This document shows positions 1-39,408 of a stretch of 64,000 bases of DNA, piece by piece. Source of the stretch: Siphonodentalium dalli (taxonomy: Eukaryota; Mollusca; Scaphopoda; Gadilida; Siphonodentaliidae); NCBI GenBank assembly GCA_032622095.1, contig CP136065.1, positions 19,954,134 through 20,018,133 of the forward strand, written 5' to 3'. A program made the translations under genes and the position numbers. A model generated the notes under the pieces. The model was given only the letters and a program-made list of their open reading frames with translations, did no database searches and was not told where the DNA came from. The number at the start of each line of letters is the position of its first letter. Within the stretch, counting starts at the first letter, position 1.

Positions 1-387
1 CCTTCTGAGACACAGTTTCAAATGGTGATGAATTATAGTATTTTAATCATATTTTGTGGCATATATTGTTAGGCCTATTAAAACCGTATATCAAGGCACT
101 ATAAAACAAAATCGGGTGACTCGAAAATTAAGCGGGCCTCTAAAGTCAATACAAAGTCACATTTGTAGTCAGGTTCATCTCATACCCGTCTATTCAGCGA
201 TATTCTGCAACGTGTTGGCTGCGTGTCGTGAATATGTATCTCAAGGAATCCCCGGCCGCGAAAACAAAAACAAATCACATTTATTGTTTTGATGTTTTAA
301 GTTATTTCCTTCATAAGAAGAGTCCTCGTGATAAAGAACCCTCTCAATACTTTAGAATATAGAATGAATCTTTAAACTAACAAAAAC

Positions 388-482
388 CTTCGGAATAGCG
401 AACCTTCGGAATAGAGAACATTCGGAATAGCGAACATTCGGAATAGTGAACATTCGGAATAGAGAACCTTCGGAATAGAGAC
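388..482 (+). repeat. 16-bp tandem array, left copy
   Basis: About six units of GAACCTTCGGAATAGC-like sequence stand in tandem. The same unit occurs in inverted orientation at 5446-5575. Confidence 0.85.
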
Positions 483-1592
483 ATGTCCCCGTATATATAT
501 GCTGCATCATAGATTGACTTTCACTCGGACACTCTCAGTTGAATTGATGATGGTTCATAGTATAGTGAAAGCTACTTGACTCTAAAATTTAGCACATTTT
601 ATGTGGTTTGAAAACAATGACATATATATTCCACGAAATGACAGAGGATGAGCCATGCATGTTCTCGCCTCCATTTCACGAAATATAAATGTTGATCAAC
701 GGACTACAAAAAAAACTTTCCAACGTCATAGCAATTTTCATTTTTGTTTTCAAATTATCGCACAGAGGAATGCGCTTTATGTTTTACCATATCATGGGAT
801 GGAGTAATACTGAACGCTTATTATTATTCATGCTGAAGAAAAGTCGAGTCTCGGGACCTGGTATTCCTAAATTGTGTTACTTGAATAAGTATAGTTGTGG
901 CATATGCAGTTTGTATATGGGTATTTAACGTAGTTAGCAATATAGTTTGAACATCGCAATGCGACCGCGATGTAATACAAACGAGCATAGTCTAGGCATC
1001 AAAGTGGCATTCCCTATCGGGTTCTCTCTCAATGCAGAATTGGTGACTTCACAAAGTGAGATTAGACTATATCACACGAAACCCCTATAATATCATTGAA
1101 AAATCCATTACATATTTTCTTATCTGTCACTAGTGGCTAATAACTAATAGTCCAAGCGGTATCACTTTCATTGTATATACCTGCACATGTGAGGTAATTT
1201 TGATTCCGTACCATTATCTGAATTACTATTGAAAACTGATTATTTGTTTTGATTAAATTATATTATTGACACATGTTACCAATAAATAACCCAATAGACG
1301 TCAAATAAAGATGAAACTACAAGGGAATATATTTCGTTGCGCGTGTAGCGCAGTACTGACCTATAGTGGTGAAGCGTCTGAGCCAACACAAGACTTGTAT
1401 CAAGTTTACGACTAGTTGTGAATCAAATTTATCAAACTCGTTTCGTAAAATCTTATATCCCAACATAACTCGTTGGAGCTCCTCTATATCTTCGAACCAA
1501 AGCGTTGCTAAGTACAGTTAAATCTGAGTAATTTCGCACTAGTATCATTAACTGCACACATTTGCTGAAGTAATATCGTAAATATCCATATC
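483..1592. other. No gene recognised
   Basis: This is AT-rich sequence with short ORFs only. I looked here for the transmembrane exon of gene C and found no hydrophobic exon with phase-1 splice sites. Confidence 0.6.
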
Positions 1593-1596
1593 TTAA

Positions 1597-2121
1597 AGGC
1601 ACGGGAGGCGTTCGTTGTAGAAATATTCATATTTGTTCAAATCGCCAATTTACGGAAGGAATATTAAAATATATAAAGTTTTGTTCATATGCCAAACATA
1701 ATCAGCGCGTAAATAGTATGTTGTCGTCAAGACGTACGATGGTGTACGTAAATAATAACCTGTTCGTGTTACAGAAGTTTTGCTTCTCTTTACATAACAC
1801 AGCGCAATTCTATTAGTTAATAACACACAAATGATACAAACGCTCTTTATTATTTCCATATCAGGAAAACAGTAACAGATAACGCTCTTTATGTTTACCA
1901 TATCCGGATCTAAACAAACGCCAGGTTATGTAACGTTTTTTTTTGCTTTTGTTTAAATAACACAGGAAAACATTTGACAATAACATACTGTTTATGCCAT
2001 ATTTCTGTTTGGTATAAGAACAAGGTCTGTCTATAATTTACTATTCTTTCTGTTTATGGCGGTTTTTGTGACGGAGCTGAATATTTTAACAGCACACCCA
2101 CCGCCAACGCCGCCCGTGTCT
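1597..2121 (+). mobile_element. TTAA-flanked MITE (piggyBac-like), copy 1
   Basis: Terminal inverted repeats AGGCACGGGAGGCG and CGCCGCCCGTGTCT are flanked on both sides by TTAA (1593-1596, 2122-2125). The interior contains repeated AAAGAGCGTT words and no coding capacity. The same element lies at 45006-45479, also between TTAA, and a degraded inverted copy lies at 6266-6757. TTAA target duplication is typical of the piggyBac superfamily. Confidence 0.75.
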
Positions 2122-2552
2122 TTAATAATACCACGGGGTATTGATTAGACTGAAGTACATCAAAATATATCACTTGGGCTGGAATTTTGTTTAAATCGAT
2201 AACTTTGTGACATAAAAGCTGCGTTAAATAGCAGCCTTTGTTTTGTATTACATTGGGCATATATGTATGAATACCGAGTATTATATAATTAAAAGCCTGC
2301 TAGTTACCATCAGGGTGTGCATCCTGGGTATACCACTTGGAAATGACCTGATCGAATGCCGCGTATATGAAAACGGGGGTGGGGTGAGATCCCACAGAAA
2401 TATGCATGCATAGGGCCTATATATGGGACGGCATGTCGACTTTACATGTATTCAGTTATTTGGTACAACCTCAAAGAGTGGCGTTCCAAAATATAACAGC
2501 TCATAGTGTGTTCAAATTAACATAATATTTCTGTGTTTGTTTTTTTCGACAG

Positions 2553-2923
2553 TATTAGCTGCAAGATGTGCAAATGCAAGTGTTCAGACTGAACAAGGAA
2601 GTGATCCTATACAAGTCATCAATGGTCGGCCGAATGGCCGGCAGTGTGCTGAGACCTTCATCAACAATGAGACAAGCAGTGGAGCCGCTGGTCGCTCGGA
2701 ATATGCTGGGCTTGGAAACCACGGCCCTAAATTACACCATGGCTTCCCCCGTGATAAACCAGTTTGTGTGCAAATTGAACAGAATGAGATGGACACTTAT
2801 GGACAGCCGGAGGACACTGAGCAGAAGCGGACAATGGTGGATTCAGTAGACACTGGAGTTGGCACCATGGGTAGCTTGACTGTTGACGTAAGAAGAGGAG
2901 GACCATTCGAGCCATTACATTGA
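2553..2923 (+). CDS. Terminal exon of receptor-like gene C (cytoplasmic tail)
   Basis: This is the last coding exon of a gene whose earlier exons I cannot find in the window. A pyrimidine-rich tract ending in TTCGACAG forms the acceptor at 2551-2552. The exon opens in phase 1 and encodes 123 residues up to TGA at 2921-2923. It is hydrophilic, with no signal peptide or membrane segment. It aligns by eye with gene A exon 4 (minus strand, 39408-39005): shared elements include PR-x-KP-x-CV, EQNE and the terminal DTGVGTM. Its RQC-x-ETF and [A/R]-[T/S]-E-[F/Y] segments also match the gene B tail. The intron just upstream matches gene A's intron 3 in inverted orientation. By analogy with gene A it should be the cytoplasmic tail of a type I membrane protein. 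The transmembrane exon would be expected roughly 1-2 kb upstream but was not recognised, so this may be an exon with a longer intron or a gene fragment. Confidence 0.7.
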
Positions 2924-4719
2924 TGATATCCGATCATAGGCACCATGTTATCAGATCTCGACCATAGACACCATGTTATCAGATCTCGACTATAGACACC
3001 ATGTTATCAGATCTCGACCATATACACAATGTTATCATATCTCGACCATTGACACCATGTTATCAGATCTCGACCATAGACACCATGTTATCAGATCTCG
3101 GCCATAGACACCATGTTATCAGATCTCGACCATAGACACCATGTTATCAGATATCGACCATAGACACCATGTTATCATATCTCGACCATAGACACCATGT
3201 TATCAGATCTCGACCATAGGCACCATGTTATAAGATCTCGACCATAGACACCATGCTATCAGATCTCGACCATAGACACCATGTTATCAGATCTCGACCA
3301 TAGACACCATGTTATCAGATCTCGACCATTGACACCATGTTATCAGATCTCGACCATAGACACCATGTTATCAGATCTCGGCCATAGACACCATGTTATC
3401 AGATCTCGACCATAGACACCATGTTATCAGATATCGACCATAGACACCATGTTATCATATCTCGACCATAGACACCATGTTATCAGATCTCGACCATAGA
3501 CACCATGCTATCAGATCTCGACCATAGACACCATGTTATCAGATCTCGACCATAGACACCATGTTATCAGATCTCGACCATAGACACCATGCTATCAGAT
3601 ATCGACCATATACACCATGTTATCAGATCTCGACCATAGACACCATGTTATCAGATCTCGACCATAGACACCATGTTATCAGATCTCGACCATAGACACC
3701 ATGCTATCAGATCTCGACCATAGACACCATGTTATCATATCTCGACCATAGACACCATGTTATCAGATCTCGACCATAGACACCATGTTATCAGATCTCG
3801 ACCATTGACACCATGTTATCAGATCTCGACCATAGACACCATGTTATCAGATCTCGACCATATACACCATGTTATCAGATCTCGACCATATACACCATGT
3901 TATCAGATCTCGACCATATACACCATGTTATCAGATCTCGACCATAGACACCATGCTATCAGATATCGACCATATACACCATGCTATCAGATCTCGACCA
4001 TATACACCATGCTATCAGATCTCGACCATAGACACCATGTTATCAGATCTCGACCATATACACCATGTTATCAGATATCGACCATATACACCATGTTATC
4101 AGATCTCGACCATAGACACCATGTTATCAGATCTCGACCATAGACACCATGTTATCAGATATCGACCATAGACACCATGTTATCAGATCTCGACCATAGA
4201 CACCATGTTAGCAGATCTCTACCATAGACATCATGCTATCAGATCTCGACAATAGACACCATGTTATCAGATCTCGACCATAGACACCATGTTATCAGAT
4301 CTCGACCATAGACACCATGTTATCAGATCTCGACCATAGACACCATGTTATCATATCTCGACCATAGACACCATGTTATCAGATCTCGACCATAGACACC
4401 ATGTTATCAGATCTCGACCATTGACACCATGTTATCAGATCTCGACCATAGACACAATGTTATCAGATCTCGGCCATAGACACCATGTTATCAGATCTCG
4501 ACCATAGACACCATGTTATCAGATATCGACCATAGACACCATGTTATCAGATCTCGACCATAGACACTATGTTATCAGATCTCGACCATAGACACCATGT
4601 TATCAGATCTCGACCATAGACATCATGTTATCAGATCTCGACCATAGACACCATGTTATCAGATCTCGACCATAGACACCATGTTATCAGATCTCGACCA
4701 TAGACACCATGTTATCAGA
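2924..4719 (+). repeat. 28-bp satellite, about 64 units
   Basis: Head-to-tail units of AGATCTCGACCATAGACACC plus ATGTTATC (28 bp) start directly after the gene C stop codon, with units differing by one to three substitutions. Recurring runs of the same variants suggest block duplication. The 28-nt period gives apparent ORFs with 28-residue periodicity, which are artefacts. A single diverged unit lies at the equivalent place after gene A's stop (about 38965-39005). Confidence 0.97.
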
Positions 4720-5203
4720 TCATGCCATGAATCTCTACTCCAGCTACGCCCATATAGATCATATTCCACCAGTACAAAAACTGAACACTTTTTGTTGTTC
4801 TGACAGGGAACTTTATAACATTGAACAAACACAGCAGGGAATATATTTCTTTGTTAACATTTGTTCCTCAATAATCTACTTCACAGTAGAGATTTGAGAT
4901 TGCATGCTTTTTGTGACTTATGTGAGCTGATATTGCAATAAACATTGCATTGAATACCAGGGAGATATTCCATGATTATAAGAAACACAAAAGTCACTTA
5001 AATCGTACAATTTTGAGTTGGTACCTTCACGTACAGTGAAATACATTATTAAGGAACAGGTATAAACTAAGAAATGTATTACTTGCACTGTTTTTTCCTC
5101 AATATTCTGAACTTCCCTGTTACAACATCAACAAGTTCCCAGATTTTGTACTAGTGGAATACGATCTCTACGGGCTTAGCCATAGTAGAGATTCATGGCA
5201 TGA
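4720..5203 (+). mobile_element. MITE inserted in the end of the 28-bp satellite
   Basis: This 484-bp element has perfect 20-bp inverted ends (TCATGCCATGAATCTCTACT) continuing imperfectly for about 20 bp more. A satellite-like unit resumes just beyond it (about 5206-5232), so it interrupts the array. It has no coding capacity and its superfamily is unknown. Confidence 0.7.
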
Positions 5204-5445
5204 CCTACCATGTTATCATATCTGGACCATACGATATGCAACTATTATAGTTATATTCAACTGTTATAGTTGAATTTGACTATACCTAATCAACATTTTC
5301 TGTTTTAAAACAGACTGTCAGCAACATTGGAATGTGGACAATAATCAAAATATATACACACTTCAGATGCATACTAACATATTTATGTCATTTTGAATTG
5401 TCGCTACGGATGTTCTCAGATAAATGATAGAAGACTCAATGTCGG

Positions 5446-5575
5446 GTAGGGTTCTCTATTCGAAGGTTCTCTATTCGAAGGTTCTCTATTCGAAGGTTCA
5501 TTATCCCGAAGGTTCGCTATTCTAAAGGTTCACTATTCTAAAGGATCACTGTTCCGAATGTTCGCTATTCCAAAG
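5446..5575 (-). repeat. 16-bp tandem array, right copy (inverted)
   Basis: Eight degenerate units (GGTTCTCTATTCGAA type) are the reverse complement of the array at 388-482. The two arrays bracket gene C's terminal exon and the satellite. Confidence 0.8.
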
Positions 5576-6150
5576 GGTTTCAATTCTGGGCGTATTAATT
5601 TAGCCAGAAAATAATCAAAGTTTTTACATGCCGATATTTCAAAACATGTGCCAAGGCTGTACAAAATAACATACTGTGTACCCTTCAGCACATTTTCAGA
5701 ACCTGTGTACCTTCAGCACAGGTGATACACTATCGGTATAACCGTTTTCAAACAACCTTCATAATATGTTTTGGGTTATTCTATGTCATCAAATGCATGT
5801 ATTAGCATTATAGTAATTTAAAATATAATAGTTTAGTATAACTATAATATTTGAATCCAGTATGTGCCAGATCGTTTTATTGTTCAGCTGTTAGCATCAA
5901 ATGCATCGAACAAATATTATGCACATGGATGTATCAATGCTTATAATCACGTTTGAGTTCAAGTGGCGTGCATTCTCTAACTAAATATATAGCAATTTTT
6001 TCAGATTCGATGGATAAATGATGACCCCCCCCCCCCCCTACCACCACCACCGACTTGACAATAAAACAAACAGAGGTTTTGGTGGTCAGATATCGACTTT
6101 CAAAAGAGAAAGTTTTAACACTTTTTGAATCTTGAAATACATTAATATGG
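5576..6150. repeat. Gene C 3' flank, inverted duplicate of 38220-38560
   Basis: Segments around 5840-5940 and 6050-6140 match the reverse complement of 38430-38530 and 38220-38310. Shared words include CCAGTATGTGCCAGA and CAGAGGTTTTGG. A C-run interrupts at about 6025. Confidence 0.6.
6060..6065 (+). promoter_or_regulatory. Candidate poly(A) signal downstream of gene C
   Basis: AATAAA lies in a segment (6050-6140) that aligns in inverted orientation with 38220-38310 downstream of gene A, where an AATAAA is also preserved. If used, the gene C 3' UTR would be about 3.1 kb and include the 28-bp satellite. Another AATAAA exists near 4938 inside a MITE. Confidence 0.3.
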
Positions 6151-6265
6151 GAACTACAGTTATAGACTAAAGTTATATATGTGAGAAAGCGTTATATAGT
6201 TCTCTTCACTCGTGCACTTATAACGATTGTTATGTAAAGATGTATACATATATCACACTAATTAA

Positions 6266-6757
6266 AGGTACGGTTGGCCTTGGCGGTGGGTATCCTGTTA
6301 AAATATTTCCCACCGTCAAAAACCGCCACAAACAGAAAGAATATCAAAATGTAGAAAGACTTTGTCCGTATACAAATAAGAAATATCGCATAAACAGTAT
6401 GTTATTGTCATATGGTTGACCATTGTTATGTAAACAAAAGCATAAAAAGTTACTTTTCTGGTGTTTGTTTATATTATGATGGTAAACATAAAGAGCGTTC
6501 TTTGTGGGTGAATTCCTGATATGGAACTAATAAAGAGCGTTTTATGCCATTTGTGTGTGATTAGCCGTAGCATTGTGTTGTCTTCTGTAACACAATCAGG
6601 CTCTTGCTTAGGTAAAATATAGTAGGTCTTTATGATAACATGCTGTTTACGCGATGGTCATGGTATATATGAACGAAACTGTATGCGTTTTACTGTTTTT
6701 TCTGTTTACGGTGATTGGAACAAATGTGAATATTTTCGACAACTAAGGCCTCACGTG
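6266..6757 (-). mobile_element. TTAA-type MITE, degraded inverted copy
   Basis: TTAA at 6262-6265 precedes AGGTACGGTTGGCCTTGGCG, the inverted right end of the family at 1597-2121. The interior matches that family in reverse, and the far end near 6757 (GCCTCACGTGTCAT) has lost its TTAA. Confidence 0.6.
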
Positions 6758-6815
6758 TCATATATATATATATGCCCAGTCATATATATTGTCAAATTTG
6801 AAATATACGTTATAA

Positions 6816-6888
6816 GTCCGATTTATAAGTGAAATAAAGACCCCACTCGGAGAGCGTGCGTGGTGTTTATTTCACTTATAAATCGGAC
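6816..6888. repeat. Hairpin
   Basis: Arms GTCCGATTTATAAGTGAAAT and its reverse complement are separated by a spacer of about 25 bp. It is probably a solo MITE end or a cruciform-forming palindrome. Confidence 0.8.
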
Positions 6889-7259
6889 GCCGTGCTTATA
6901 ACATATTTATGACACCCAATCAGCCCGATAAACTTGCAATCAGTAATTAAATATGTGGTCAGTTTTACAAACATGTTCCTGTGAATACCAATCAATACCC
7001 CATGGTCGATATTTCACCCAGATTGTACAACGAATTGCATTTATGTCGAATCATGACATTTCAATTTACGTTTGTGTTAATCGTGGATTAAGATAGCACA
7101 CTACACTTCTAATCTATTGTACATTATTCCTACATATCGGATTTATTTATTCCATATATTCCAAGCCGGATTTATAATATCACAAACAGCACTTTCGACA
7201 AATGTAAGTTATTCATTGGGGTCCGGTTAATAACCTTCAGTTACTGTAAATATCGATGA

Positions 7260-7900
7260 GTTGTTGTCTGCGCTGCAAAACGGTCTGTCGTTGATTACAT
7301 TTGTTCATTGTGTTGGTGATGGGGGTGGGGTACTAAATTTGCCACTGTTCAGAATAGTAACTGCAGGCGTTTGCCGACAAAGCAAATGCCCATGTAACTT
7401 GTCCGAATACCCCCCCCCCCCCCCCACCCGATCTGAAATTTCAGTATGGCGTATACTCGGTATTACTTTAATTAATTATATAATTATTAATGTTTATAAA
7501 TTTGGCATGACGTATCGCCCATGGCTTCCAGTCGCTACGTCCCTGCATCTGCTCGGTGTGACTAAACATGGTATCACAGTCCATATTAGTAATGCTGATC
7601 TCGGTGGAAAAATAACTTGTTTGAATGAATGGGAATGCATAATTGGTCAATCAATGTGTGCGCCTCGAATACGATGCATAAAGCTTGTTGTAATCACAGG
7701 TATTAGGCACAAAAAATATTTTTTTTAATTTAATAAAAATCTTGCTATTTATTTTTATATTTTTTTTTGGCCAAATATACCCGTGGTTTTAATCACGACA
7801 GCACGATTGATAGAACAGGCGACGACTTAAAGATCTTTACAGTAAATGAAGGTCGGTCACCGGACCTCATTAGATAACTTAAGTGGAGGGCTGATTGGCG
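7260..7900. other. No gene recognised
   Basis: An open frame of 155 codons (7261-7728) crosses a C-run and shows no family features, so I treat it as chance. The rest is AT-rich. Confidence 0.5.
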
Positions 7901-7934
7901 TGTTATAATTCGATATCGCACCATTATCATCCTC

Positions 7935-8130
7935 ATCACCAGCATGTATGATCTGTTTGTGTGTATCATCTCGCACCATCGCAGTCACACCAGCACAAAG
8001 TGCCTTCATTTAACCTTATATAATTTTCATATTTGGATGATGTATTACTCGCATGATGTATATTATTATGATCAATCGCCCGCTATCTACTTGTCACTGA
8101 AACGCGCCCTCAGTTTATTTGAATAATATG
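7935..8130 (+). repeat. Inverted-duplication segment paired with 35265-35450
   Basis: The sequence beginning GTATGATCTGTTTGTGTGTA matches the reverse complement of 35265-35450 over about 190 bp. Confidence 0.75.
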
Positions 8131-8269
8131 TTTACTGACCCAGATTGTCTTGCATATCAAATAACTGCATATACAATTAAATAAATAAGTTTTGAGGACA
8201 ATTTGTGTATTTAAGAAATCTTATATGACATTGTTATGATCAAAATATAATGTTGTATTGAGGCTCGAT

Positions 8270-8500
8270 AAATTATTTTCTATTCTATTCTATTTTATTA
8301 TTTTAGATTCCATTCTATCCTATTCTATTATTTGATATGCTATCCGATTCTATTCAAATTTGATATTGTTCAAATAGGAACCGGTGATTATAAAGCCTCA
8401 AATTATTATACTTCACAATCTCAACGTTATCACATTCCGAACCGATTCCGTAATCAAAATACGTCGATAAATATATGAAATTTATACCTACTTTATATGA
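8270..8500 (+). repeat. Inverted-duplication segment paired with 34350-34620
   Basis: A TTCTATTCTATT-rich stretch followed by GGAACCGGTG matches the reverse complement of 34460-34590, including CCACCGGTTCCCATTTTGA. Collinear order with neighbouring pairs supports one large inverted duplication. Confidence 0.55.
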
Positions 8501-8590
8501 CGTGGAAATATTACTCCGGTCATATAATCTATATCGCTGCAGAAACAATTCAGCATGAAACAACAATCAGCGTTCGTGCATGTGGTCAGG

Positions 8591-9452
8591 CAGGGGTGGC
8601 ACCAGAAAATCCCCGACAGGGGAGCTGTGCTCCCCGACAAGGGGGCTACACTAAATTACACCATATTGCCTGTTGGTACGTGAAATGAGCGCACATAGTG
8701 TGTGTGGCGAACCAATGAACAAAACCATATTGAAGTAATTGTAGTTCCTTAGCTGGAGCCTGGAGAATTCTAATAGATCTGCAGTTGCTTATGATTGATG
8801 AACATTATCACATATGTAAATAATAACACATATATTATGGTGGTGTCAATTAAACTTGAATTAAGGCTTCGCCACACTAATATTTGAACAATACATCAGC
8901 CATAATTAGCAGATGAGATAACTCGAAGATTAAAACCCATGAATTGTTGTGAAAATTCCTATATTCTAGGTAGGCCACTTGTCTTCTGTGTCAGTTCTAA
9001 TTTGTAATTTCATTAGTTGCAAGTGCCAGCATGGTGTTTCACTGTCGGGGATATAGCTAACATGTGGCCATACTGTAGGTACTCAATGGTTCTATAGACC
9101 AATGTGGCCATTGTAACAAATGCAGAGTAGCCAGCAATGATAAAGCACACATGTTTCAATAGATGTTCATTACCACTAAAACGCTGATGGTGTAACAATA
9201 CAGGGGAATACCCCCGGATGTAATGGGAACATGTGCCATGAATATTTTGTGTGGGATATATTCCGCTGTATGTTCTCTCGCTGACACTTTCCCACACTGA
9301 CGGTCTGTACATGATTACTTCATCTTATACGCACAACCGACTTACATATAAAAAATCCCCGACAAGTCCTCCCCGACGAGGGGGCTAGAGCTCCCCGACA
9401 TGGGGGCTGTAGCCCCCCCCCCACCCCGTGCCCCCCACTGGCGCCACCCCTG
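8591..9452. mobile_element. hAT-like non-autonomous element
   Basis: The ends CAGGGGTGGCACCAG and CTGGCGCCACCCCTG form terminal inverted repeats, flanked by a perfect 8-bp target duplication TGGTCAGG (8583-8590 and 9453-9460). CAGGGG-type ends and an 8-bp duplication are diagnostic of hAT elements. Near each end there are repeated CCCCGACA(A/G)GGGGGCT words. No transposase is encoded. Confidence 0.9.
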
Positions 9453-9699
9453 TGGTCAGGTCGGTACGATAAGGTAATAACACAAGAGTGTTTGTCTCAA
9501 TTATGTGCGGAAAATTGAAATTAGCTGAAGAATATCTATGACTCCGGTAATTTGTTTGTTTTTCGTTCCTGACGGGGTAGGCCTATATAAAGTAAGTGTT
9601 TTGCATGGTATTTCGCGTATTTATCGACCTATATAATCCCGCCTGCCCAATTATATTTATGCATATTTTCAAATCATTTTGGAATCTGGAAGTTCAAAT

Positions 9700-9900
9700 G
9701 AGCCATGTCAGTTTAATAACTCGTGAGGTAAAAACATTGTTTTCTCAACAAAATCTATTTCAAGCAGTAAACCACGTAACGGAGTGGACCAGATTACACT
9801 GCCATTTGCATCTAATTGTTTTAAAATATTCGAAATTGTTCTAACAGAATCTTTTTTATAAAATAAACCAATATTTGCACTGATTTGAGTTTTCCAACAT
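9700..9900 (+). repeat. Inverted-duplication segment paired with 33600-34330
   Basis: ACTCGTGAGGTAAAAACATTG and the following bases match the reverse complement of 34250-34320. CCAATATTTGCACTGATTTG matches the reverse complement near 33640-33660. The right copy is split by an insertion of the GTCGAGG repeat family. Confidence 0.65.
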
Positions 9901-10129
9901 ATACTCAACATATATAGTTGGAAAACATATCTCCATTTAATTTTAATTTAATTATATATTTATATGTTGACTCTGTTTTTTAAAGTGATTTGAAACACTC
10001 CGCGGGGGATGGGGTGCACAGCGAATAAACTTGTTCCACTCAGGTATTTAATTAATGTTGTATAAAAATTGCATTGTTGTTGAATGTTTTGACAATAATA
10101 TTTTATTGATACATTATACATGCTTCAAA

Positions 10130-10480
10130 TGGGTGTAGTGGCAGAGTCGTTAAATATCAGTTTTAAAGGCTCACTTAATTTTCGAACCCCAGATCACATA
10201 TATAACATATATGCCATATTATATATCATTTGAAAGAGGAAGCTCCAAAACATTGTATTTATCAACTTATCCGGTGTAATTGACAGTGAATATGTGTTTT
10301 TTTGTTGAGTTACCGACGAGTGTTTGTGTTTAAGTTTCATCTGGTTTTGGTGTGAAAAGTGTATTATTTTCAATGGAGGGGGAATAACTCAATATTTTAA
10401 AGATAGACTTATTCCCCTTTCATTAAAAATACATTTTTAGTTTGAATCTGTTGCATTCTGGGAGCCACAACGGGGGTAAT
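10130..10480 (+). repeat. Dispersed repeat with a single 48-bp-like unit
   Basis: The sequence from TTAAAGGCTCACTTAATTTT through TTGTTGAGTTACCGACG to GGAGGGGGAATAACTC is shared in direct orientation with the borders of the satellite at 29150-31490. Where that locus has 45 units this one has one (about 10183-10230). An upstream stretch TGGCAGAGTCGTTAA resembles a tRNA A box, weakly suggesting a SINE head. Confidence 0.8.
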
Positions 10481-10519
10481 CTTATTTGACTTTTAAATTA
10501 GGCAACCTGGTAACACTAC

Positions 10520-10960
10520 CCTTTTTAAGTAGATATCTGAGCATACGAAGACACCACTTGAAGGCTTCGTGTGTTCATTAGATTATGCATGGTGTATACA
10601 CAACGTACAACTATGCTAGTTTTGCGGTGTTCAGTCGATGGGGCATCTTTAACAAATGTGTGCTAATATCGAAAAAAAATAACTAAATTAATATCGTAAC
10701 TTACGGATGGGTGTCCAGTCTAAGTTAATCCGTAATGAATTATCTACCACACTACCCATGATGGCGTGTGTAACTATTAGTAACCAATTTAAACTTAACG
10801 TGTCATGTTATTCACCGACTATAGAGTTTCTGAGAAATATACTCTGGGACGCGACTTGTATTAATTCCTCGAACTCAACAAGGAAGTATGTCAAGTTTAT
10901 TATTCCCCAGTGTGCAAGGGTGTCCATTAGTGCCTAACAATTATTATAGTTGGCTGCTGA
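10520..10960 (+). repeat. Inverted-duplication segment paired with 32330-32790
   Basis: About 440 bp match the reverse complement of 32330-32790, including GTGTTCAGTCGATGGGGCAT and GGATGGGTGTCCAGTCTAAG. Confidence 0.85.
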
Positions 10961-11759
10961 AGTTAAATTTATCATAATACCCACGGACATACACTCTATC
11001 CTACCGGAACGCGGCCTATCAGTGAAAAAACGGATCAGTGTCCCCACATATAAAGGCAAATCACTGTTTTGTATATAGATTTTTAAAAAGCCGACCGATA
11101 AAGCTGACCGATAAACCTGACTTCAAAACGTCACATAATAATGGTATATATCTATTTCCTCCGTGGTGGAGTCATCGGGCGATGCACGGTTCGACTCCGG
11201 GCAAGGGCTTATGTTTAAAAGGTTTGCCATGCATATATCGCTATTCTATAGTGCGTTTTATGCAATTCCTGAGCATAACCAGAATGTTTGATAAAATCCC
11301 GGCGGTGGAATATATCAGCAATACAATCATGCGCATCAAAATCCCATTTGGTTGGAAAACCCGACGGTCTAAACCACAGGACCCTGGGAATTACCAGATA
11401 TACCAATATATTATACTACTAGTTGAAAAGGTCTCCCTTCGAGAGCCTTTATTCCGCGTCGGGGGAGCCTTCGGCCCCTGCACAAAAGGGCCTTCGGTCA
11501 TGTATGTGCTTTGTCCACAATTTGATCAAAAGGACAAAGGCGGCACATTTGATGTGTTCAGTGGTATATAGTATATAATGGTATATCGCCCTGTTATATC
11601 ATTAAATGAAAGTGTCAATGACACTGTAGCTCAACTTGGGAAGGAGTTTATTTTTTGCTGAGCATTGGATATAATGATAAAAAAAAGAAGGAAAGAAAAA
11701 AAAAGTTGCAGTAAAGGTATTGTAATGTGTATATGAAATTATTTTCATTTGAAACATTT
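10961..11759. other. No gene recognised
   Basis: A 177-codon open frame (11038-11571) has no recognisable family. It contains a tRNA-like B box (GGTTCGACTCC at 11188-11198) without a correctly spaced A box. Confidence 0.45.
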
Positions 11760-11779
11760 CACCAATAAATGTGGACTGC

Positions 11780-12470
11780 AGAGTGCATGTGCGGATGGAT
11801 TAAAAATTTATAACGAATTTCGGAAATAATCGATGGCTCCAGTCTAGAGGACGTCACGAAGATATGAAGTTTGGTGACGATTGGATGAGGGATGTGGCCT
11901 GTATAGGGTGTGCCGACGGATTTAGTCAGGCAAAGAGTAAAATCAACTATGGCCACTGACAGCCATGTTATTTAACGAATTTCGAGAATAATCGATGGCT
12001 CCCATTTAGAGATCACCAAAGATCCATATGAAGTTTGGTGACGATCGAATGAGGGATGTGATATGTAGGGTGTGCCAAAGGATTTAGTCATGCAAAGAGT
12101 AAAATCCCAAATATCCACTGGCATCCATGTTTTTCTACGAATTTCGAAAAACAAATCGATGCCTCCCATCTAGAAGTCGCCATGAAGATCCATATAAAGT
12201 TTGGTGATGATCGAATGAGGGATGTGTTTGTGGGGTGTGTCAAAGTATTTATTCACCCAAAGAGTAAAATCCAAGAAGGCTGCCAGTGCCCATATTTTTC
12301 ATCGAAACTTGTTCAAATTCGATGGCTCTCATCTATAGAGGTGATCCTAAACATGCCTGCAAATTTTCAAAACAATTCTCCAATAAATGCGGGCTGTGGG
12401 CTGAGTCAATGGATTCAAATTTGAAATCCAAGATGGCTGCTGGCGGCCACGTTTCTTTAGGAATTTTTGA
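11780..12470 (+). repeat. Tandem repeat, about 155-bp units, 3-4 copies
   Basis: Units carry CGAATTTCG, AATCGATGGCTCC, GAAGTTTGGTGACGAT and GAGGGATGTG in the same order, each ending in a GGCCACTG/CAGCCATGTT-type segment. The last unit is degenerate. The same AAGATGGCTGC words recur in the MITEs at 39738 and 50906. Confidence 0.85.
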
Positions 12471-12479
12471 CAAAACAGT

Positions 12480-13060
12480 TTCACTCATTCCCCTATCACA
12501 TCCACTCAGAAATATATCATATCCATGCATTCACCAATCAATATATTCGTTGACCAGTCCACCCATCGATATATAAACACGCATTCGTCCTCTCGCCCAC
12601 CCATCCTTGTATAAACTCAAATTCATGCAGACTATATAACTAATTGGTTATTCGATAAACCAACTCACCCAGTGATGACATTACACGGATCCTTCTAATA
12701 ACATACACGCATCTATACATGTACATATGTACATACTGTACCGCCTTATAATCAACAGATAACAAATAACTAGGGCCCTTGTATATGGGTCAAATCATAT
12801 GCATGCCCCGATATTGTTTGATTTCTCTAATTTTGGGAACACCACCCCCCCCCCCCCCACATATAACATTTGCTGAAATAATTAAAGACACCACAACATT
12901 AGAATGAGACAAATCTTGAGAAATTATGTACACGACCATGAAATGGGCCAGGAGAAATGTCAGACGTATTTTTAGATGTAGAAAATTAATTTGCATCCAA
13001 TTGACATGAAACTGACTCTGATTCAAAAGAAATGTGTACTAATGACATGTCAACTAAATT
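12480..13060. other. No gene recognised
   Basis: CCACCCATC-like degenerate words lie at 12480-12760, then a C-run at about 12845. Nothing coding was seen. Confidence 0.5.
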
Positions 13061-13084
13061 GGTACGTTAAGTTCCACAAACATT

Positions 13085-13497
13085 GAGTATCGTCGTACTT
13101 AAATTTTCGAAATATTTGATTCGAGTCGAGGAACCGACCTATCAAAATTCATAGTGATCAAATATCGATTTTCTAAATCTATTATTTTTCACCACCGAAA
13201 ATTTTCAGGGGCCCAGTAAAAGGTCGACGAGAAGACGGTCTCTGATCAAATTTCGGATGAGGATGGATAACTCTAAAATCAAGTGACTTTTTGCGTCAAA
13301 TAATTGACAAACCGGCAAAATTTTGTTGAACAAAATGTTGATAAATAACAGGTTTTGGGCAATTTTATACTATAGTTGACTGGTTAGCATTATTTTTGGG
13401 CAATTTATCGATTCTGATAACTGGAGCAGCGTTGTTGGAATCTGATGATATGGGGACCGGGATCGAATCGGATTTAGTACCTTTAAGTTCAATTATT
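13085..13497 (+). repeat. GTCGAGG dispersed repeat, copy 1
   Basis: About 410 bp from GATTCGAGTCGAGGAACC to GAATCGGATTTAGTACCTTT. Related copies are at 23690-23880 (3' half), 33760-34180 (same strand) and 36440-36885 (inverted). No ORF; family unknown. Confidence 0.85.
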
Positions 13498-14394
13498 TAT
13501 TAAATGTCAATTTGTCTTCCCATATACATGTACCTGTATGTTTGGTACCTCAAGATATTATAGGAAAATAAAAACAAAACATCGCATCAAGATCAACACC
13601 AGTGACGTTGTAGTAGAGGATACTAAATTGTTGTACTTAATTAATCATTATAGAACAATTTACAGTCATGTAGAACGGCCGTGGAGCCAGCAAAATGAAG
13701 CAATTAATTGGATTACAGCAAACATTTATCCATGTCAGGAATCGGAACGCTGAAAATGTGCGTGTCGTGAATCGGAACACTCCGGAAGCAGAATCGGAAC
13801 CTATGGTAGTGTTACTTTTAAGGCATTATGTCAAGCTCAAATCGCGTATTTTGTTCAACTGTATTTTTAAAGTGACGATGGGTTGTTTGTGGATACACGT
13901 AAGCAATTTGTTCTACAAAACATTATCTTTTTCGCTTCGAAATTCACATTTGTACACCATACTTTTCTTCTGTGTGTGTGTGGATTTGAGTGAGCAACTC
14001 TTGTAATTTAGTTCAGCGTGTTATATAATTATGGGACTAAAGAATAAGTAAGTGAAGAGTAAACTACCTTAGAAACAAATCCTATAATTTGAGTGTGTCA
14101 TCACACGAGTTTCTCCCTCGATAAACACCATGCAACTAGTAAACATGGTCGTGGGAAATCGAGCAAAACGTTCGCGGAATCGGATCTTCTACTGCTCGGA
14201 ATGGGGATTTTGCTCGGGCGGAATTTCGAGGAGCATATCCTTCACAGTGACACCAGCAGCGTAACCAGTAATTAGGAACGAGAGAAGGTGGCCGGAAATA
14301 TGAGGTAAGCCAAAAAGCTTGTATTTCCGAACAACGCATCCCTGATGTACCAACGACACGGCACACCCGCCGATAGCAGACGACAGGCCGATGT

Positions 14395-14640
14395 ACTCAA
14401 CTAGATATCAACCCATGAAGTCACAGGAGATCCCCGATTCACGCAGACGACAGGAAGACACACTCAACATGAAGACACGAGAAGCCACCAGTTCAGGCAG
14501 ACGACAGGAAGAAGCACTCAACACGAAGACACGAGAAGCCCCCAGTTCACACAGACGACAGGAAGACGGCCTGAACCTATGAAGACACGAGAAGACCCCG
14601 ATTCACGCATACGACAGGAAGCCGAACCCAACTAGGAGAA
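14395..14640 (+). repeat. Short tandem repeat around GACGACAGGAAGA
   Basis: About five units of 55-60 bp contain CAGACGACAGGAAGA and GAAGACACGAGAAG. It is in an open frame in places, but the frame starts and ends arbitrarily. Confidence 0.75.
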
Positions 14641-14869
14641 GCCATACCGACGACCCGAAGATATACTATTGAACTTTTGTAAATAAATTATCAAATCATT
14701 TTAATGTCTGAATGTTATATGTCCCCGTCTTGGCATACGTGTAGGGGAGGGGTGTTTCATTCCCGGTAACTGAAAGAATTGTGCACATGCGCACGGCTAC
14801 TAGAATCGACGTATAATATATGTATGTGGTCCCTTTTTACTATTTTTTGCCTATTTTGTTCTGTCAATA

Positions 14870-15570
14870 ATTCCTTTTGTTATATCACAAAAATGAATAT
14901 ATGATATAAGTGTGAGCATTTAGTGATATCACATATGCGATTTTATGATATCATATATTATTATCACTAAATGAAGTATATTTTTTTCTTCATAAAATGA
15001 ATTTATGATATCATAAAATCTAATTATTTTATCATCACTAAATGCTTTCTATTTTGTGATATCTTATATTCGATTTTATGATATCGTAAATTCATTTTAT
15101 GATATCACTAATTCGATTTAGTATATATTAATTTTGTGATATCAATAAATACTAGTTGTTTTATGATAACACATAGTCGATGTTATAATATCACTAATTC
15201 ACAGACTCACGGGCGACGTTCTTCTATTTATTACATATTTAGTTATATAGAAAAATAATTTTATGATAACATTAAATTAATATATGGTATCACATAATCG
15301 AATATATGATATCATTAAATATTTTATGATATCACAAAATGATTTTAAGATATCATAAATTCATTTTTGGATACCACAAAATCGAATTATTGATATCACA
15401 AAATAGTATGTATTTAATTATATCAATAATTGGATTTTGTGATATCAAAAATGTTGGGGAATTAGTGATATCACAAAACGATTGTAAGATATCACAAAAT
15501 GGAATTAGTGATATCATAAATTCATTTGTGGTATCATAAAATGGTTTAATGATATCACAAAGTAATGAAG
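14870..15570. repeat. GATATC-rich palindromic array
   Basis: Some 35 occurrences of TGATATCA-like palindromes are spaced about 20 bp apart and joined by TTTATG, CACAAAAT or AAATTCATT. Units occur in both orientations, so it is an array of alternating palindromes rather than a simple head-to-tail satellite. Confidence 0.85.
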
Positions 15571-28004: not shown

Positions 28005-28975
28005 GTATATTTGTCCCCCGTAAAATTTATTTTCGGGGGACTATTGTAATCAGCTCCGTCCGTATGTCCGTGCGTGCGTCCGTGTGTCCGTCCGTCCGGA
28101 ATATAACTCCAGTAATGATCATCCGATTTTATTGAAACTTGGTATGTAGTTGTCTCAACCAAGCACACATGTGCTCTGCAATTATGGTTTGATCCGATGT
28201 TCTTTTATGGAGTTATTCACCTTTTTCAACTTTTGTTTTACTTAGAAAATTTCCGGATGATATCTCAAGTTTGGATCCTTTAATTGCAAATATTTTATGT
28301 GGATCAGTCATATCGAGATACAGGTTGAGTTCGAATTTGAGTTTGATCCGATGATTTTTCCTAGAGTTATGGACTTTATTCGACTTAGAAAATTCAATTT
28401 TCCTTCTTTTTTCTTTGGTTTCCGGATGATAACTCAAGATTGGACTGTTCAATTGAAAATTCCGTTTTAATGTGAGTCATTGATATCAAAATACAGGCCA
28501 AGTTCGAATTTGAGTTTGATCTGATGATTCTTCTCAGAGTTATGGGCTTTTCAACTTAGAAAATTCAATTTTTCTTGTTTTTTCTTTGGTTTCTGGATGA
28601 TAACTCGAGTTTGGTTCGTTTAAATGGAAATTCTGTTTTTTTGGTCGGTCGTTCATATCAACATACAGGTCAAGTTCGAATTTTAGTTTGATCCAATGAT
28701 TTTTCCCAGAGTTATGGGTCTTTCGACTTTGAAAAACATTTTTTTATAATTTTCTGTATGAGGGTACCTTCATGGTGTAATCAACTCCTCCTACAGTTTT
28801 GATCGTAGATATTTGAAACTTCAGAGTATTGTTATCCACATATTGCAGATGTGCAACATGAATATAGATGACGGAAAATAAAAAAAATGTACGGAATTAT
28901 TAACCCTTTCGACTTAGAACATTTCAACATTTTTTTTAATTTCTTTAACGAAGCGGCATCGACTTGCCACGTTGT
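28005..28975 (+). repeat. GGGGGACTA...GGGGGACAC dispersed element, copy 1
   Basis: It starts TTTTCGGGGGACTATTGTAA followed by a GTCCGTCCGT-rich tract, contains three internal units of about 115 bp (CAGGTCAAGTTCGAATTT...GAGTTATGG) and ends GCATCGACTTGCCACGTTGT then CGGGGGACACTGTGGTC. The same boundaries occur at 43410-44510. It is non-coding. Confidence 0.8.
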
Positions 28976-29171
28976 CGGGGGACACTGTGGTCGGCCGACC
29001 TTTTATTAGTTTTACTATCAATTATTATTAGTTTGTTGACTGCGCACTATTGTAGTATTGATTTCAGCTCCACATTCGCTATTTCAAATATGTTGTCCAT
29101 GTTTTATCTGATAGATACAGCGTTGTGTCATTTTCAAAGGATAGAACGTTTAAAGGCCCACTAAATTTTCG

Positions 29172-31331
29172 AACCCCCAGATTACATTATATAAAATATA
29201 TGCCATATTATATACCATGAACCCCCAGATTACATTATATAAAATATATGCCATATTATATACCATGAACCCCCAGATTACATTATATAAAATATATTCC
29301 ATATTATATACCATGAACCCCCAGATTACATTATATAAAATATATGCCATATTATATACCATGAACCCCCAGATTACATTATATAAAATATATGCCATAT
29401 TATATACCATGAACACCCAGATTACATTATATAAAATATATGCCATATTATATACCATGAACCCCCAGATTACATTATATAAAATATATGCCATATTATA
29501 TACCATGAATCCCCAGATTACATTATATAAAATATATGCCATATTATATACCATGAACCCTCAGATCACATTATATAAAATATATGCCATATTATATACC
29601 ATGAACCCCCAGATTACATTATATAAAATATATGCCATATTATATACCATGAACCCCCAGATTACATTATATAAAATATATGCCATATTATATACCATGA
29701 ACCCTCAGATCACATTATATAAAATATATGCCATATTATATACCATGAACCCCCAGATTACATTATATAAAATATATGCCATATTATATACCATGAACCC
29801 CCAGATCATATTATATAAAATATATGCCATATTATATACCATGAACCCCCAGATTACATTATATAAAATATATGCCATATTATATACCATGAACCCCCAG
29901 ATTACATTATATAAAATATATGCCATATTATATACCATGAACCCCCAGATTACATTATATAAAATATATGCCATATTATATACCATAAACCCCCAGATTA
30001 CATTATATAAAATATATGCCATATTATATACCATGAACCCCCAGATTACATTATATAAAATATATGCCATATTATATACCATAAACCCCCAGCTTACATT
30101 ATATAAAATATATGCCATATTATATACCATGAACCCCCAGATTACATTATATAAAATATATGCCATATTATATACCATGAACCCCCAGATTACATTATAT
30201 AAAATATATGCCATATTATATACCATGAACCCCCAGATTACATTATATAAAATATATGCCATATTATATACCATGAACCCCCAGATCACATTATATAAAA
30301 TATATGCCATATTATATACCATGAACCCCCAGATTACATTATATAAAATATATGCCATATTATATACCATGAACCCCCAGATTACATTATATAAAATATA
30401 TGCCATATTATATACCATGAACCCCCAGATTACATTATATAAAATATATGCCATATTATATACCATAAACCCCCAGATTACATTATATAAAATATATGCC
30501 ATATTATATACCATGAACCCCCAGATTACATTATATAAGATATATGCCATATTATATACCATGAACCCCCAGATTACATTATATAAAATATATGCCATAT
30601 TATATACCATGAACCCCCAGATTACATTATATAAAATATATGCCATATTATATACCATGAACCCCCAGATTACATTATATAAAATATATGCCATATTATA
30701 TACCATAAACCCCCAGATTACATAATATAAAATATATGCCATATTATATACCATGAACCTCCCAGATTACATTATATAAAATATATGCCATATTATATAC
30801 CATGAACCCCCAGATTACATTATATAAAATATATGCCATATTATATACCATAAACCCCCAGATTACATTATATAAAATATATGCCATATTATATACCATG
30901 AACCCCCAGATTACATTATATAAAATATATGCCATATTATATACCATGAACCCCCAGATTACATTATATAAAATATATGCCATATTATATACCATGAACC
31001 CCCAGATTACATTATGTAAAATATATGCCATATTATATACCATGAACCCCCAGATTACATTATATAAAAAATATGCCATATTATATACCATGAACCCCCA
31101 GATTACATTATATAAAATATATGCCATATTATAAACCATGAACCCCCAGATTACATTATGTAAAATATATGCCATATTATATACCATGAACCCCCAGATT
31201 ACATTATATAAAATATATGCCATATTATATACCATGAACCCCCAGATTATATTATATAAAATATATGCTATATTATATACCATGAACCCCCAGATTACAT
31301 TATATAAAATATATGCCATATTATATACCAT
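29172..31331 (+). repeat. 48-bp satellite, 45 units
   Basis: Uniform units of AACCCCCAGATTACATTATA + TAAAATATATGCCATATTAT + ATACCATG (48 bp) show low divergence. The total span equals 45 x 48. Because 48 is a multiple of three, both strands show long open frames (up to 502 codons) with a 16-residue period. I consider these non-genic. Both borders continue into a dispersed repeat also found at 10130-10480 with one unit. Confidence 0.97.
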
Positions 31332-31490
31332 TTGAAAGAAGAAGCTCAAAAACACGGTATTATCAATTTATCCAGTGTAATAAACTGTGGACATGTTTTT
31401 TTGTTGAGTTACCGACGTGTTTTTGTCCTTAAGTTTTATGTCTTTTGTAGTGCAAACTGTATTATTTTCAATGGAGGGGGGATAACTCTA
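31332..31490 (+). repeat. Right border of the repeat carrying the 48-bp satellite
   Basis: TTTGAAAGAAGAAGCTCAAA through GTTGAGTTACCGACGTGTTT to GGAGGGGGGATAACTC matches 10228-10390. Confidence 0.8.
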
Positions 31491-32330
31491 CACCTGAAAT
31501 TTAGCAGGATAATGGTTCAAATAAATCTTATGTATAGAACTGTCACAGCCATGATTGGCTTGAAATAGAACCGTAACACACACGTGCTGATTACGAGGCT
31601 ACTGTTCCAAATTATCAACCGCTATCGGGATATTTTCTCAGCTATTTTACAGAAGAATAACACGTGTGTACTTTACACTCAGTGTTCGTGTTCAGAAAGC
31701 GTTTCATATTTTATACGCCACCAAAATCAAAGGAATTGCGTTTACGTGGCTTGATTTTCATTGATAACATGTTGATATTTACGCGTTAACTCGCTAATTC
31801 CAAGTAAATTGTGATTTAGAGTTCAGGTTTCGATAATACGGCACTTCTGCAGCCTCTGTTCATTCAGGATAGTATAATACATTCAATATATCTATAATTA
31901 TGTGTATTTTGTCGCGAAAATGATTATTTTAAATCATAAGGAACCGTAACAAATCAGTCAAGAACTATCACAATACCGGTGACAGAACGACTTCCGATGT
32001 AACAGTTCCTACACAGTGATGATTATCGTATTGTTGGACATGAAACGACAAGTGAAGGTTAAAGGGACTGTATTCCAAAAAAACGCGCTTTGAGTTGTAA
32101 AATTGGTACGAAATAATGATGGTGTGTTTTCGTCAAAACTCCAATCCGTAGTAGTTTTGCGAAAGGACTTTTTGGCCATAACGATAGATTTAAGACTACC
32201 AATAGCTATCCGTATTCGTAATCGTAATTGTAAGAATGCGAAAGGTCTCTATTATCATAAATTTAACTTCAACAGAGAACTATCGTTAGGCATGCACTAA
32301 TGGACATCTATACTCGGGAATCATATACTT
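31491..32330. other. No gene recognised
   Basis: Short chance ORFs only. Confidence 0.5.
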
Positions 32331-32790
32331 GACATACTTCCTTGTTGATTTCTAGGAAGTAATACAAATGGCTGCCCTTATTTAAACTTATCGTCATGCT
32401 ATCATTCACCGACTAGAATTTCTGAGAAATATATTTATCAGAAATTCTAGTCGGTGAATGATAGCACGATATGTTAAGTTTAAATTGGTTTCTAATAGTT
32501 AAACACGCCATCGTGGTAATTGTGGTAGTTATTTCATTACGGATTAACTTAGACTGGACACCCATCCGTAAGTTACGATATTAATTTAGTTTAATTAGCA
32601 CACATTTGTTAAAGATGCCCCATCGACTGAACACCACAAAACAATTATAGGTGTACGTTGTGTATACACCATGTATAATCTAATGAAATCGAACACACGA
32701 AGCCATCAAGTGGTGTCTTCGTATACTCAGATATCTACTTTAAATGGGTAGTGTTACCATGCAGGTTCCCTAAAAGTCAAACGATAACAT
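32330..32790 (-). repeat. Inverted-duplication segment paired with 10520-10960
   Basis: This is the reverse complement of the left copy. It differs by a perfect hairpin at 32398-32465 where the left copy has only one arm. Confidence 0.85.
32398..32465. repeat. Perfect 28-bp-arm hairpin
   Basis: Arms GCTATCATTCACCGACTAGA + ATTTCTGA and their exact reverse complement surround a spacer of about 12 bp. The equivalent left-copy locus near 10805-10850 has the sequence only once, so the hairpin arose by local inverted duplication. Confidence 0.85.
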
Positions 32791-32799
32791 ACTATAAAG

Positions 32800-33590
32800 A
32801 TCGTTTATAGTGCTGTACATTTAACGACGAGTAGTAAAGAGCGTTCTTAGAGATATGCTCTTATATTCCAATCTCGATGCATTATTTTTGGACGTACTCA
32901 TGTGGTTCATGTGATGCACGTGTTATGAATGGCATTGGACGCATGCATACAATATCCATAGTTGTTTGCGCCTATAGCTATAGGATATACTTTACTCGTA
33001 TTAAATTCGCGCATTACTATTTCAGCTCAGTTTTAAATTAACACACTTTGAATTCGTGCACCACCATGTGCTAATTAAACACTGACTTTTATGTATATAT
33101 ATGACGGTTGATAAATTCCAACATAACACCGATTGTGCACTGTTACGAACATATATCGGCATCATTTAATACTGACTATATGATGGCATGTGATATAGTG
33201 TAGCATAAAGTGTGGTAATGCATGCCTCAATATAGCTATAGCTGTGGTGCTTATATATAATAGTTTCCCACCGCGGGCAAAGATTGGTAATGTCTGTGGG
33301 TGCATGGTTTTCGATTTTCGCCTCTTCGCTATCTTTGCACAAATTTAGACCGTCGGTTTCCCAACCAAAATGGGCGGCAATTGAGTGAGTTACGGGTGCG
33401 ATAACATCATGTCTCTACGACAGTCAAATTTCCGAATAGCTTGTATATTTCATTCAGAACTCTTTGCCAAAATTTGCTTTCTGGAGCAATGGATCATATG
33501 TTGCGATTCGTTATTTAAAGACATATTACGCGCCTTTTTCACTTCTTCATCACGGCCACTACACCCATTTGAATAATGTATAATGTATCA
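32800..33590. other. No gene recognised
   Basis: AT-rich sequence with short ORFs. Confidence 0.5.
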
Positions 33591-33759
33591 ATAAATTATT
33601 ATTTGTCAAAAAAATTCAACAACAATGCAATTTTGATACTCAAATCAGTGCAAATATTGGTTTATGTCACAAAAACGATACTGCTAGATCAATTTTGGAT
33701 ATTTTAAAACAATTACAGATGCATAATCCGAATTAACGCTCCTAAATTACTATTTCTTT

Positions 33760-34180
33760 GGCTTCGGGGGTCAAAAATATTTTATTCGAGTCGAGGAACC
33801 CACACAGCAAAGTTCAGAGTGATCGGATATCGATTGTTGTATTCTATTATTTTTCACCACCGATAATTTTCTGTGACCCAGTAAATGGTCGACGAGAAGA
33901 CGGTCTCGGACAAAATTGCGGATGAAGATGGGTAACTCTAAAATCAAGTGGCTTTTTTATTTGTGTCAGCTATTTGACAAACCGGCAAAATTTCGTTGAA
34001 CAAAATGTTGATAAATAACTGGTTTTGGTAAATTGTATACAATAGTGGACTGTGGTTAGCATTTTATTTGGGCAATTAATCGATACTGGTAACTGGAGCG
34101 GCATTTAAAACAACGTTGTTGTTGTTATTGTTGAAATCTGATGATATGGGGACAATCGAATCGGATTGAGCACCTTTAAT
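33760..34180 (+). repeat. GTCGAGG dispersed repeat, copy 3
   Basis: It carries TTCGAGTCGAGGAACC, GGTCGACGAGAAGACGGTCT and GAATCGGATTGAGCACCTTT in the family order. It splits the inverted-duplication segment matching 9700-9900, so it inserted after the duplication or was lost from the left copy. Confidence 0.85.
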
Positions 34181-34249
34181 TGCAAATGGCGATTTGAAGT
34201 CTCAAGTTACATGCAGGTAAAGCTGATAGTGTAATCTGGTTCACTCGTT

Positions 34250-34620
34250 AAATGGTTTATTACTTGAAATAGATTTTGTTGGGAAAACAATGTTTTACCT
34301 CACGAGTTACTAAACTGACATGGATTATTTGAACATCCAAATTCCAAATTTTTTAAAATATGTATACTATAATTAACGACGTATTGGATCACCGGAATCG
34401 TGTCATAATGTGACAAAGTTGAGCATTGTGAAGTACAATAATTTAAGTCTTCAAACCACCGGTTCCCATTTTGAACGATATCAAATTTGAATAGAATCGA
34501 ATAGCATATAAAAGAATATAATAGAAAATAATGGAATATAAAATAATAGAATATAATAGAAAAGAATTTATTGAGCCTCATTACAACATCATAGTTTGAT
34601 CACAAGACTATAAAATAATA
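34250..34620 (-). repeat. Inverted-duplication segment paired with 8270-8500 and 9700-9780
   Basis: It contains the reverse complement of the 9720-9790 segment and the AATAGAATATAATAG-type stretch matching 8280-8350. Confidence 0.55.
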
Positions 34621-35264
34621 AACAAGAAATATGATAATTGCAGAGACTAGATGAAGTAGTGCGGCTGAAGTTTAGAAGTGAAAAAGTGAGTGATATCTTT
34701 GCAAAGTTGATCTAGACCATTTAAGATAGAATGAAGAGCAGTCTCATTGTATGATAGAAATTAGAAACATATGTATTTAACATCGCAAAATGAAAATGCA
34801 ACTTTATAACAGTATGCTAATGAAGAATTCAAGTAAAATTAGTCATATCAGATTTCATGAATACACAAATTGTCATGAAAATTTATTTATTTAATTGTAT
34901 AGATAGATATTTATTGCGATACACCAATTTATGGCAGTTGCACAATTAAACATAACGAACATATATATCATAAACAACATAGTAACAAACATAATATAAC
35001 TAATTTCTAATATTGATAATGACACATTTACAATTGTGAACTACTAATGAGCTGTTTTCTCCAAATGAAGAATAACCGGATCATGTTGCACACATATATG
35101 CCATCAACGTCGTTTTTCGGTTGATCTATGAGCCTATAGATCGACCAGTAGACGAATAACATACTCTATAATTCCATGCTTGTTTTTCATGATATTTAAA
35201 AAATTTAAATTTATATGCTGTTATCTGATATACAAGACATTGCATCTGGGTCAGTAGACAGATT

Positions 35265-35450
35265 ATTCAAATAAACTGAGGACGCGTTTCACTGTTCGTG
35301 CAATAGCAGGCAATTGAGCATAATAATACACCATGCGAGTAATACATCGTCCAATATGAACATTGCACAAGGTTAAATGAAGGCACTTTGTGCTGGTGTG
35401 ACTGTGATGATGCAAGATGATACACACAAACAGATCATACATACATGGTG
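35265..35450 (-). repeat. Inverted-duplication segment paired with 7935-8130
   Basis: GGCACTTTGTGCTGGTGTGA and neighbours are the reverse complement of the left copy. Confidence 0.75.
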
Positions 35451-36376: not shown

Positions 36377-36439
36377 TTAACGTACTGTGATGCGAGGTAT
36401 AATCTCCATATACGTTATGCAGATTCAGATACAAAATTA

Positions 36440-36885: not shown

Positions 36886-36930
36886 GCGGAAATATACATA
36901 AGGAAACAGCTATATGAATATAATAAATTA

Positions 36931-37075: not shown

Positions 37076-37079
37076 TATT

Positions 37080-39004: not shown

Positions 39005-39408
39005 CTAATGTAATGTCCGAACTAACGGTACTCCTTCTGATACGTCAATATTTATGGTATCCATGGTGCCCACTCCAGTGTCACGTGCACATGAATCCCC
39101 CATTCCCTGCTTGTGCAGTGTCTCATCCTGTCCACAATGCACTATTTCGTTCTGTTCAGTTGCCACACATAATGGCTTGCCACGAGGGATGTCACCTTGG
39201 CCTGAAGGCGCGGGGTTTCCAATCCTGCTAATGGGAACCCCGCTAACAACATATTCTGTTGGACCAGCAGATCCAGTATTCGTGTCGTGGATGTGGTACT
39301 TCTCAATAGGATTGCGGGGGTTCGACCCACCATGGCTGATTTGTGTGCTGTCATTTGCTTGGTCAGTCTCATCAGCTGTTGGTACAAGTTCATACAAACT
39401 TCGTCCAT
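39005..39408 (-). CDS. Gene A exon 4: cytoplasmic tail and stop
   Basis: This is the terminal exon, residues 167-300, entered in phase 1 after an acceptor ending ATTTTAG. The tail is hydrophilic, shows no death domain or kinase-like features, and contains a Tyr-bearing start (SLYELV), a PTEYVV segment and the C-terminal motif DTGVGTMDT. It is homologous by eye to the gene C exon at 2553-2923 and more distantly to the gene B tail. An AATAAA on the minus strand (38304-38299) is placed equivalently to an AATAAA downstream of gene C and may mark the transcript end. No known family could be assigned to the tail. Confidence 0.75.

Follow-up and report, generated by a model that had tools for sequence, protein, structure and literature searches.

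A tandem array of 28-bp units begins directly after the last exon of a gene, C, and a single unit of the same kind stands at the corresponding position after the last exon of its paralog, A, 36 kb away. We consider it probable, at roughly 75%, that a 28-bp stretch was inherited from the common ancestor of the two copies, was amplified in C after the duplication, and remained single in A. The features are given below in coordinates of the window, i.e., the whole 64-kb stretch of DNA that was analyzed.

2559..2923, forward strand: last coding exon of gene C (stop codon TGA at 2921-2923; open reading frame 2507-2923; splice acceptor judged by eye)
2925..2953, forward strand: unit 1 of the array, irregular, 29 nt, with 7 ungapped mismatches
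2954..4717, forward strand: units 2-64 of the array, consensus GATCTCGACCATAGACACCATGTTATCA
4720..5203, no strand assigned: fold-back (inverted-repeat) element of 484 bp between unit 64 and the right-edge unit, with an AATAAA at 4937
about 5203..5230, forward strand: right-edge unit, 5/28 mismatches, running into the flank
5746..6260, forward strand: downstream flank homologous to A 38589-38119 (BLASTN), holding the shared AATAAA
38976..39003, reverse strand: single unexpanded unit in A, 25/28 matches to the array consensus
39005..39408, reverse strand: last coding exon of paralog A (stop codon 39007-39005; splice acceptor judged by eye)

The array is about 1.8 kb long and its onset lies one base past the stop codon of exon C. 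An earlier note, made from the sequence, had reported 64 units of 28 bp directly after this stop, and that count is borne out by 64 units in phase at 2926-4717 and by TRF (2931-4721, period 28, 64.0 copies, 95% matches). Units 2-64 differ from the consensus by 0.75 mismatches on average, with 26 of the 63 identical to it, and their mean pairwise distance is 0.049. Minisatellites consist of head-to-tail units of roughly 10-100 bp, and the term satellite DNA applies to a unit that is abundant across many loci or in large blocks. The array, with 28 bp repeated head to tail 64 times, is of minisatellite size, and the unit occurs within the 64-kb window as one array, the edge unit of that array and one single unit. 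The word "satellite" in the earlier note was thus an overstatement: within the window, this is one local minisatellite. Exact matches of the unit numbered zero in viral and genome contig collections, both of which are without animal genomes, may lack this genome as well, and are hence uninformative on a genome-wide satellite. A higher-order structure was also considered, in which units 6-10 equal units 16-20 (three non-consensus units, a number attained in 4 of 300 permutations); it was dropped, because lag 10 taken alone gives p 0.011 but the permutation p for the best lag overall is 0.26.

The single unit in A and unit 1 in C have the same spacing from the stop codon, each starting one base past it. 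The number of sites with up to 3 mismatches that is expected by chance in 64 kb, counting both strands and all 28 phases, is 1.1e-5, and in 20/20 simulated windows the best match had 6-9 mismatches. Outside the array, A's unit and the right-edge unit of C are the only sites in the window with 6 or fewer mismatches; the next-nearest site, at about 34126, has 7 mismatches, which is approximately the chance level (0.29 expected). With gapped scoring, the same two sites still rank first, at 45 and 44 compared to 36 for the next. A single diverged unit at the same position after A's stop, as had been claimed, is therefore present (39003-38976, 25/28), but the accompanying description of an "ancestor still visible" has to be corrected: A's unit is a diverged, unexpanded sister copy, not the ancestor.

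The flank alignment proposed in the earlier note was carried out with BLASTN and is significant: C 2443-2953, array unit included, matches A 39523-38976 with E 7e-36. Farther downstream, C 5746-6260 matches A 38589-38119 with E 5e-70 and an ungapped identity of 0.840, and C 5230-5746 contains two short aligning blocks only (E 0.004 each). When the C side (1-15000) was compared with the reverse strand of 31000-46000, leaving out rows inside the 28-bp array, 17 blocks were listed. Eleven of these are collinear and inverted, with C 2443 / A 39523 at one end and C 10979 / A 32250 at the other; their ungapped identities are 0.735 for the exon, 0.84-0.94 for eight blocks, and 0.79 and 0.91 for the two short ones with E 0.004. 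The six off-order blocks comprise three that match the MITE-like copy near 45000-45483 (C 1639-1730, 2000-2065 and 6262-6757), one that matches a repeat at 36819-36448 (C 13110-13486), and two very short ones (C 11343-11373 and 12417-12440). Upstream of C 2443, the matches to the side of A are a MITE-like copy. Judging from these alignments, the exon and its downstream flank were certainly duplicated in inverted orientation. The duplication likely extends to C 10979, which is unproved, since a separate repeat could account for the seven blocks that begin at C 7933 or beyond. A lenient global aligner assigned an ungapped identity of 0.69 to unrelated windows (60 pairs), so that its figures are not proof of homology and the BLAST blocks are relied on; the global alignment serves as illustration only. 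It was made with C stripped of the fold-back element, of the interior of the array and of most of the 16-bp repeats at 5450-5570, and it leads from the exon by way of unit 1 and the right edge to the flank of A. Homologous flanks on both sides, together with the single unit of A at the corresponding position, indicate that the array arose out of inherited sequence at this site rather than out of a foreign repeat inserted there.

These sequences are most simply explained by growth in C. The common ancestor of A and C would have carried one 28-bp stretch in the non-coding sequence directly past the stop codon; after the duplication, slippage or unequal exchange would have duplicated the stretch in the C copy and then amplified it to 64 units, whereas the A copy would have kept its single stretch. 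The fold-back element would later have cut the last edge unit off from the array. Growth in C is favored because the array units are more alike (0.049) than the flanks of A and C (about 0.16 in the 5746-6260 block), with the caveat that concerted turnover of an older array could yield the same low diversity. It should be noted that we infer the direction of growth, its molecular mechanism (slippage or unequal exchange), its neutrality and the location of the array within C's 3' UTR. A seed of about 1.5 ancestral units (ATCTCG... and ATCTGG..., approximately 28-32 bp apart) was considered and rejected, as the match in A is not significant: the score of the candidate direct repeat in A is equalled by 26% of 18,270 control positions and by 14% of 5,000 shuffles. 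The control positions include the arrays of the window, so that 26% is somewhat too high, whereas the 14% from the shuffles is unaffected.

The right edge of the array, which was missing from the earlier note, and the fold-back element next to it bear on the history of the locus. The right-edge unit has TATCTGG in common with the sequence after A's unit; past the start of the right-edge unit, similarity fades about 13 nt into the next unit (judged by eye), and the fold-back element intervenes. A few states at the two edges are those of A. T at unit position 9 is found in unit 1 and A, and G at position 6 in the right-edge unit and A, each in 0/63 of units 2-64; T at position 1 is found in the right-edge unit and A, and in 5/63 of units 2-64. 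Of the 3 differences between A's unit and the consensus, 1 is common to unit 1 and the other two are not. The fold-back element has perfect 20-nt inverted ends (4720-4739 and 5184-5203) and arms that are 80% complementary over 113 nt; along its length, it is about 70% identical to its reverse complement. No second copy of it was found in the window. With array repeats to either side, no target-site duplication could be made out by eye. If the arms started out identical, at least two units, including the separated edge unit, are old.

The leading alternative holds that a multi-unit array already stood after the ancestral stop, collapsed to one unit in A, and was kept and re-homogenized in C. 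Exchange between the first and the last unit would leave one unit with the same edges, as seen, and the age of the array could be erased by concerted turnover; an old pair of units would also be implied if the fold-back arms diverged after insertion. The A-like edge states are predicted by expansion inside inherited sequence and equally by collapse through exchange of edge units, and thus do not discriminate between the two. Collapse, however, requires an array that persisted for long and then left one unit in A, and among the best 40 of the 62 hits listed there is no second full unit beside A's unit with 9 or fewer ungapped mismatches; we therefore consider it rather unlikely. The earlier note's claim that the array grew in one paralog from a sequence both inherited accordingly stands as to the local inherited origin, which the flank homology supports, and is plausible as to the direction, with the caveat that collapse would leave the same unit.

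The gene context is as follows. The tails of C and A share 39% amino acid identity over 117 aligned columns (tblastn E 1e-17). Between the tail exons, dN is 0.46 and dS 0.45 (120 codons), values higher than the difference of about 0.16 in the downstream flank; unless the alignment misleads, the excess divergence would point to relaxed, diversifying or separately inherited exon sequence. The last exon is the only recognizable part of gene C in the window, and the transmembrane exon of A (40704-40483) has no match at E 1; C may be a fragment, or its remaining exons may lie to the left of the window. The exon at 55250-55558 is weakly related at the protein level (best tblastn hit to C, E 6e-4), and its flank matched neither A nor C as DNA at E 1e-8, in a comparison that covered rows of length 60 or more outside the 28-bp and 48-bp arrays, mirror rows removed. 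Pfam searches of 10 + 4 open reading frames gave hits for A's transmembrane exon alone, all of them under the curated cut-offs. Upstream of that exon, an open reading frame on the minus strand (45567-45947) resembles, by eye, a signal peptide with a cysteine-rich domain; it has no Pfam match, and its segment 45651-45860 has 0 matches among PDB sequences.

AATAAA is present at corresponding places in the two flanks, at C 6060 (3,137 nt past the stop codon) and at A 38304 (701 nt past the stop codon), and a nearer AATAAA in C, at 4937, is within the fold-back element. If the shared AATAAA is used, the array would be part of C's 3' UTR, which would be about 4.5 times the length of A's. The array lies between the stop codon and the AATAAA common to A, and so could be transcribed, which would be compatible with selection for a regulatory role of the array in the 3' UTR of gene C. 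Such a role appears very unlikely, because RNA structure is not in excess in five array units (z of +1.26 and +0.06 on the two strands) and because C, whose last exon alone is recognizable in the window, may be a fragment. Searches of the window found 0 Rfam matches at gathering scores and 0 tRNAs.

Delivery of a ready-made array by a transposable element, with A's unit as a chance match or a separate insertion, would suit a C flank that holds other insertions (the fold-back element at 4720-5203, the MITE-like element at 6261-6757 and the 16-bp array at 5450-5570), but it is extremely improbable given that A's unit is far above chance (expectation of 1.1e-5) and, like unit 1, starts one base past the stop codon with homologous sequence on both sides.

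The window has a eukaryotic look, with coding exons that are split as judged by eye, and is rich in inverted and tandem repeats. The MITE-like element, of about 500 bp, is present in three copies (1593-2126, 6261-6757 and 45002-45483), two of which are inverted around exon C. Arrays of 16-bp units at 385-481 and 5450-5570, about 5 kb apart, are mutually inverted around exon C as well; no BLAST block places the array at 5450-5570 in A's flank. Arrays of 21-bp units at 46359-46585 (about 11 copies) and 47778-48654 (about 42 copies) are also mutually inverted. Two further arrays have relatives with one unit or little more. The 48-bp array at 29171-31331, with 45 units, has a one-unit relative at about 10182-10229, and the homology continues for about 20 bp to the left and about 160 bp to the right. 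The 191-bp array at 43493-44014, with 2.7 units, has a relative at 28721-28942 with little over one unit; the right flank is in common (28897-29008 with 44399-44512), and the left flank is broken there by another array. The 48-bp and 191-bp arrays and their relatives seem to belong to repeat families rather than being copies of genes. The 28-bp, 48-bp and 191-bp cases amount to three in a 64-kb window, the 28-bp case being without an above-chance flanking repeat, and we raise, tentatively and with considerable doubt, the possibility that arrays are often born from single-copy sequence here. If true, this genome would be a natural laboratory for the rate of array birth and for the smallest seed required.

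Growth in C can be compared with published models of minisatellite birth. In the model of Haber and Louis (1998), as outlined in PMC6947457 and PMC3389668, a minisatellite is born from a motif between short (5-10 bp) direct repeats. The array described here resembles this outline in that slippage or unequal crossing-over would have turned one motif of minisatellite size into a tandem array, and differs from it in that flanking direct repeats of 5-10 bp could not be distinguished from chance (26% of controls, 14% of shuffles). The model of Taylor and Breden, in the outline given by the same two sources (PMC6947457, PMC3389668), involves noncontiguous repeats and an incomplete end unit. C's array likewise ends in a diverged, apparently incomplete unit; unlike in that outline, the end unit is now cut off by the fold-back element, and its original state is uncertain. 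In the human genome, tandem repeats have been described that grew inside copies of transposable elements (PMC3389668). There, as here, related copies have a sequence in common that one of them has expanded and its counterparts repeat only in part (PMC3389668); the comparison in that source is between primate genomes, whereas this one sets two copies of a gene end within a single genome side by side.

The array beside exon C is a clear example of an already described process, for which birth models are published. The start of a tandem array is harder to study than its growth, as the founding state is usually gone. At this locus, a one-unit copy is kept beside a 64-unit copy, which makes the register and the edges of the founding stretch legible. 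If outgroup copies were added, the locus could serve to test whether an array needs flanking repeats as its seed.
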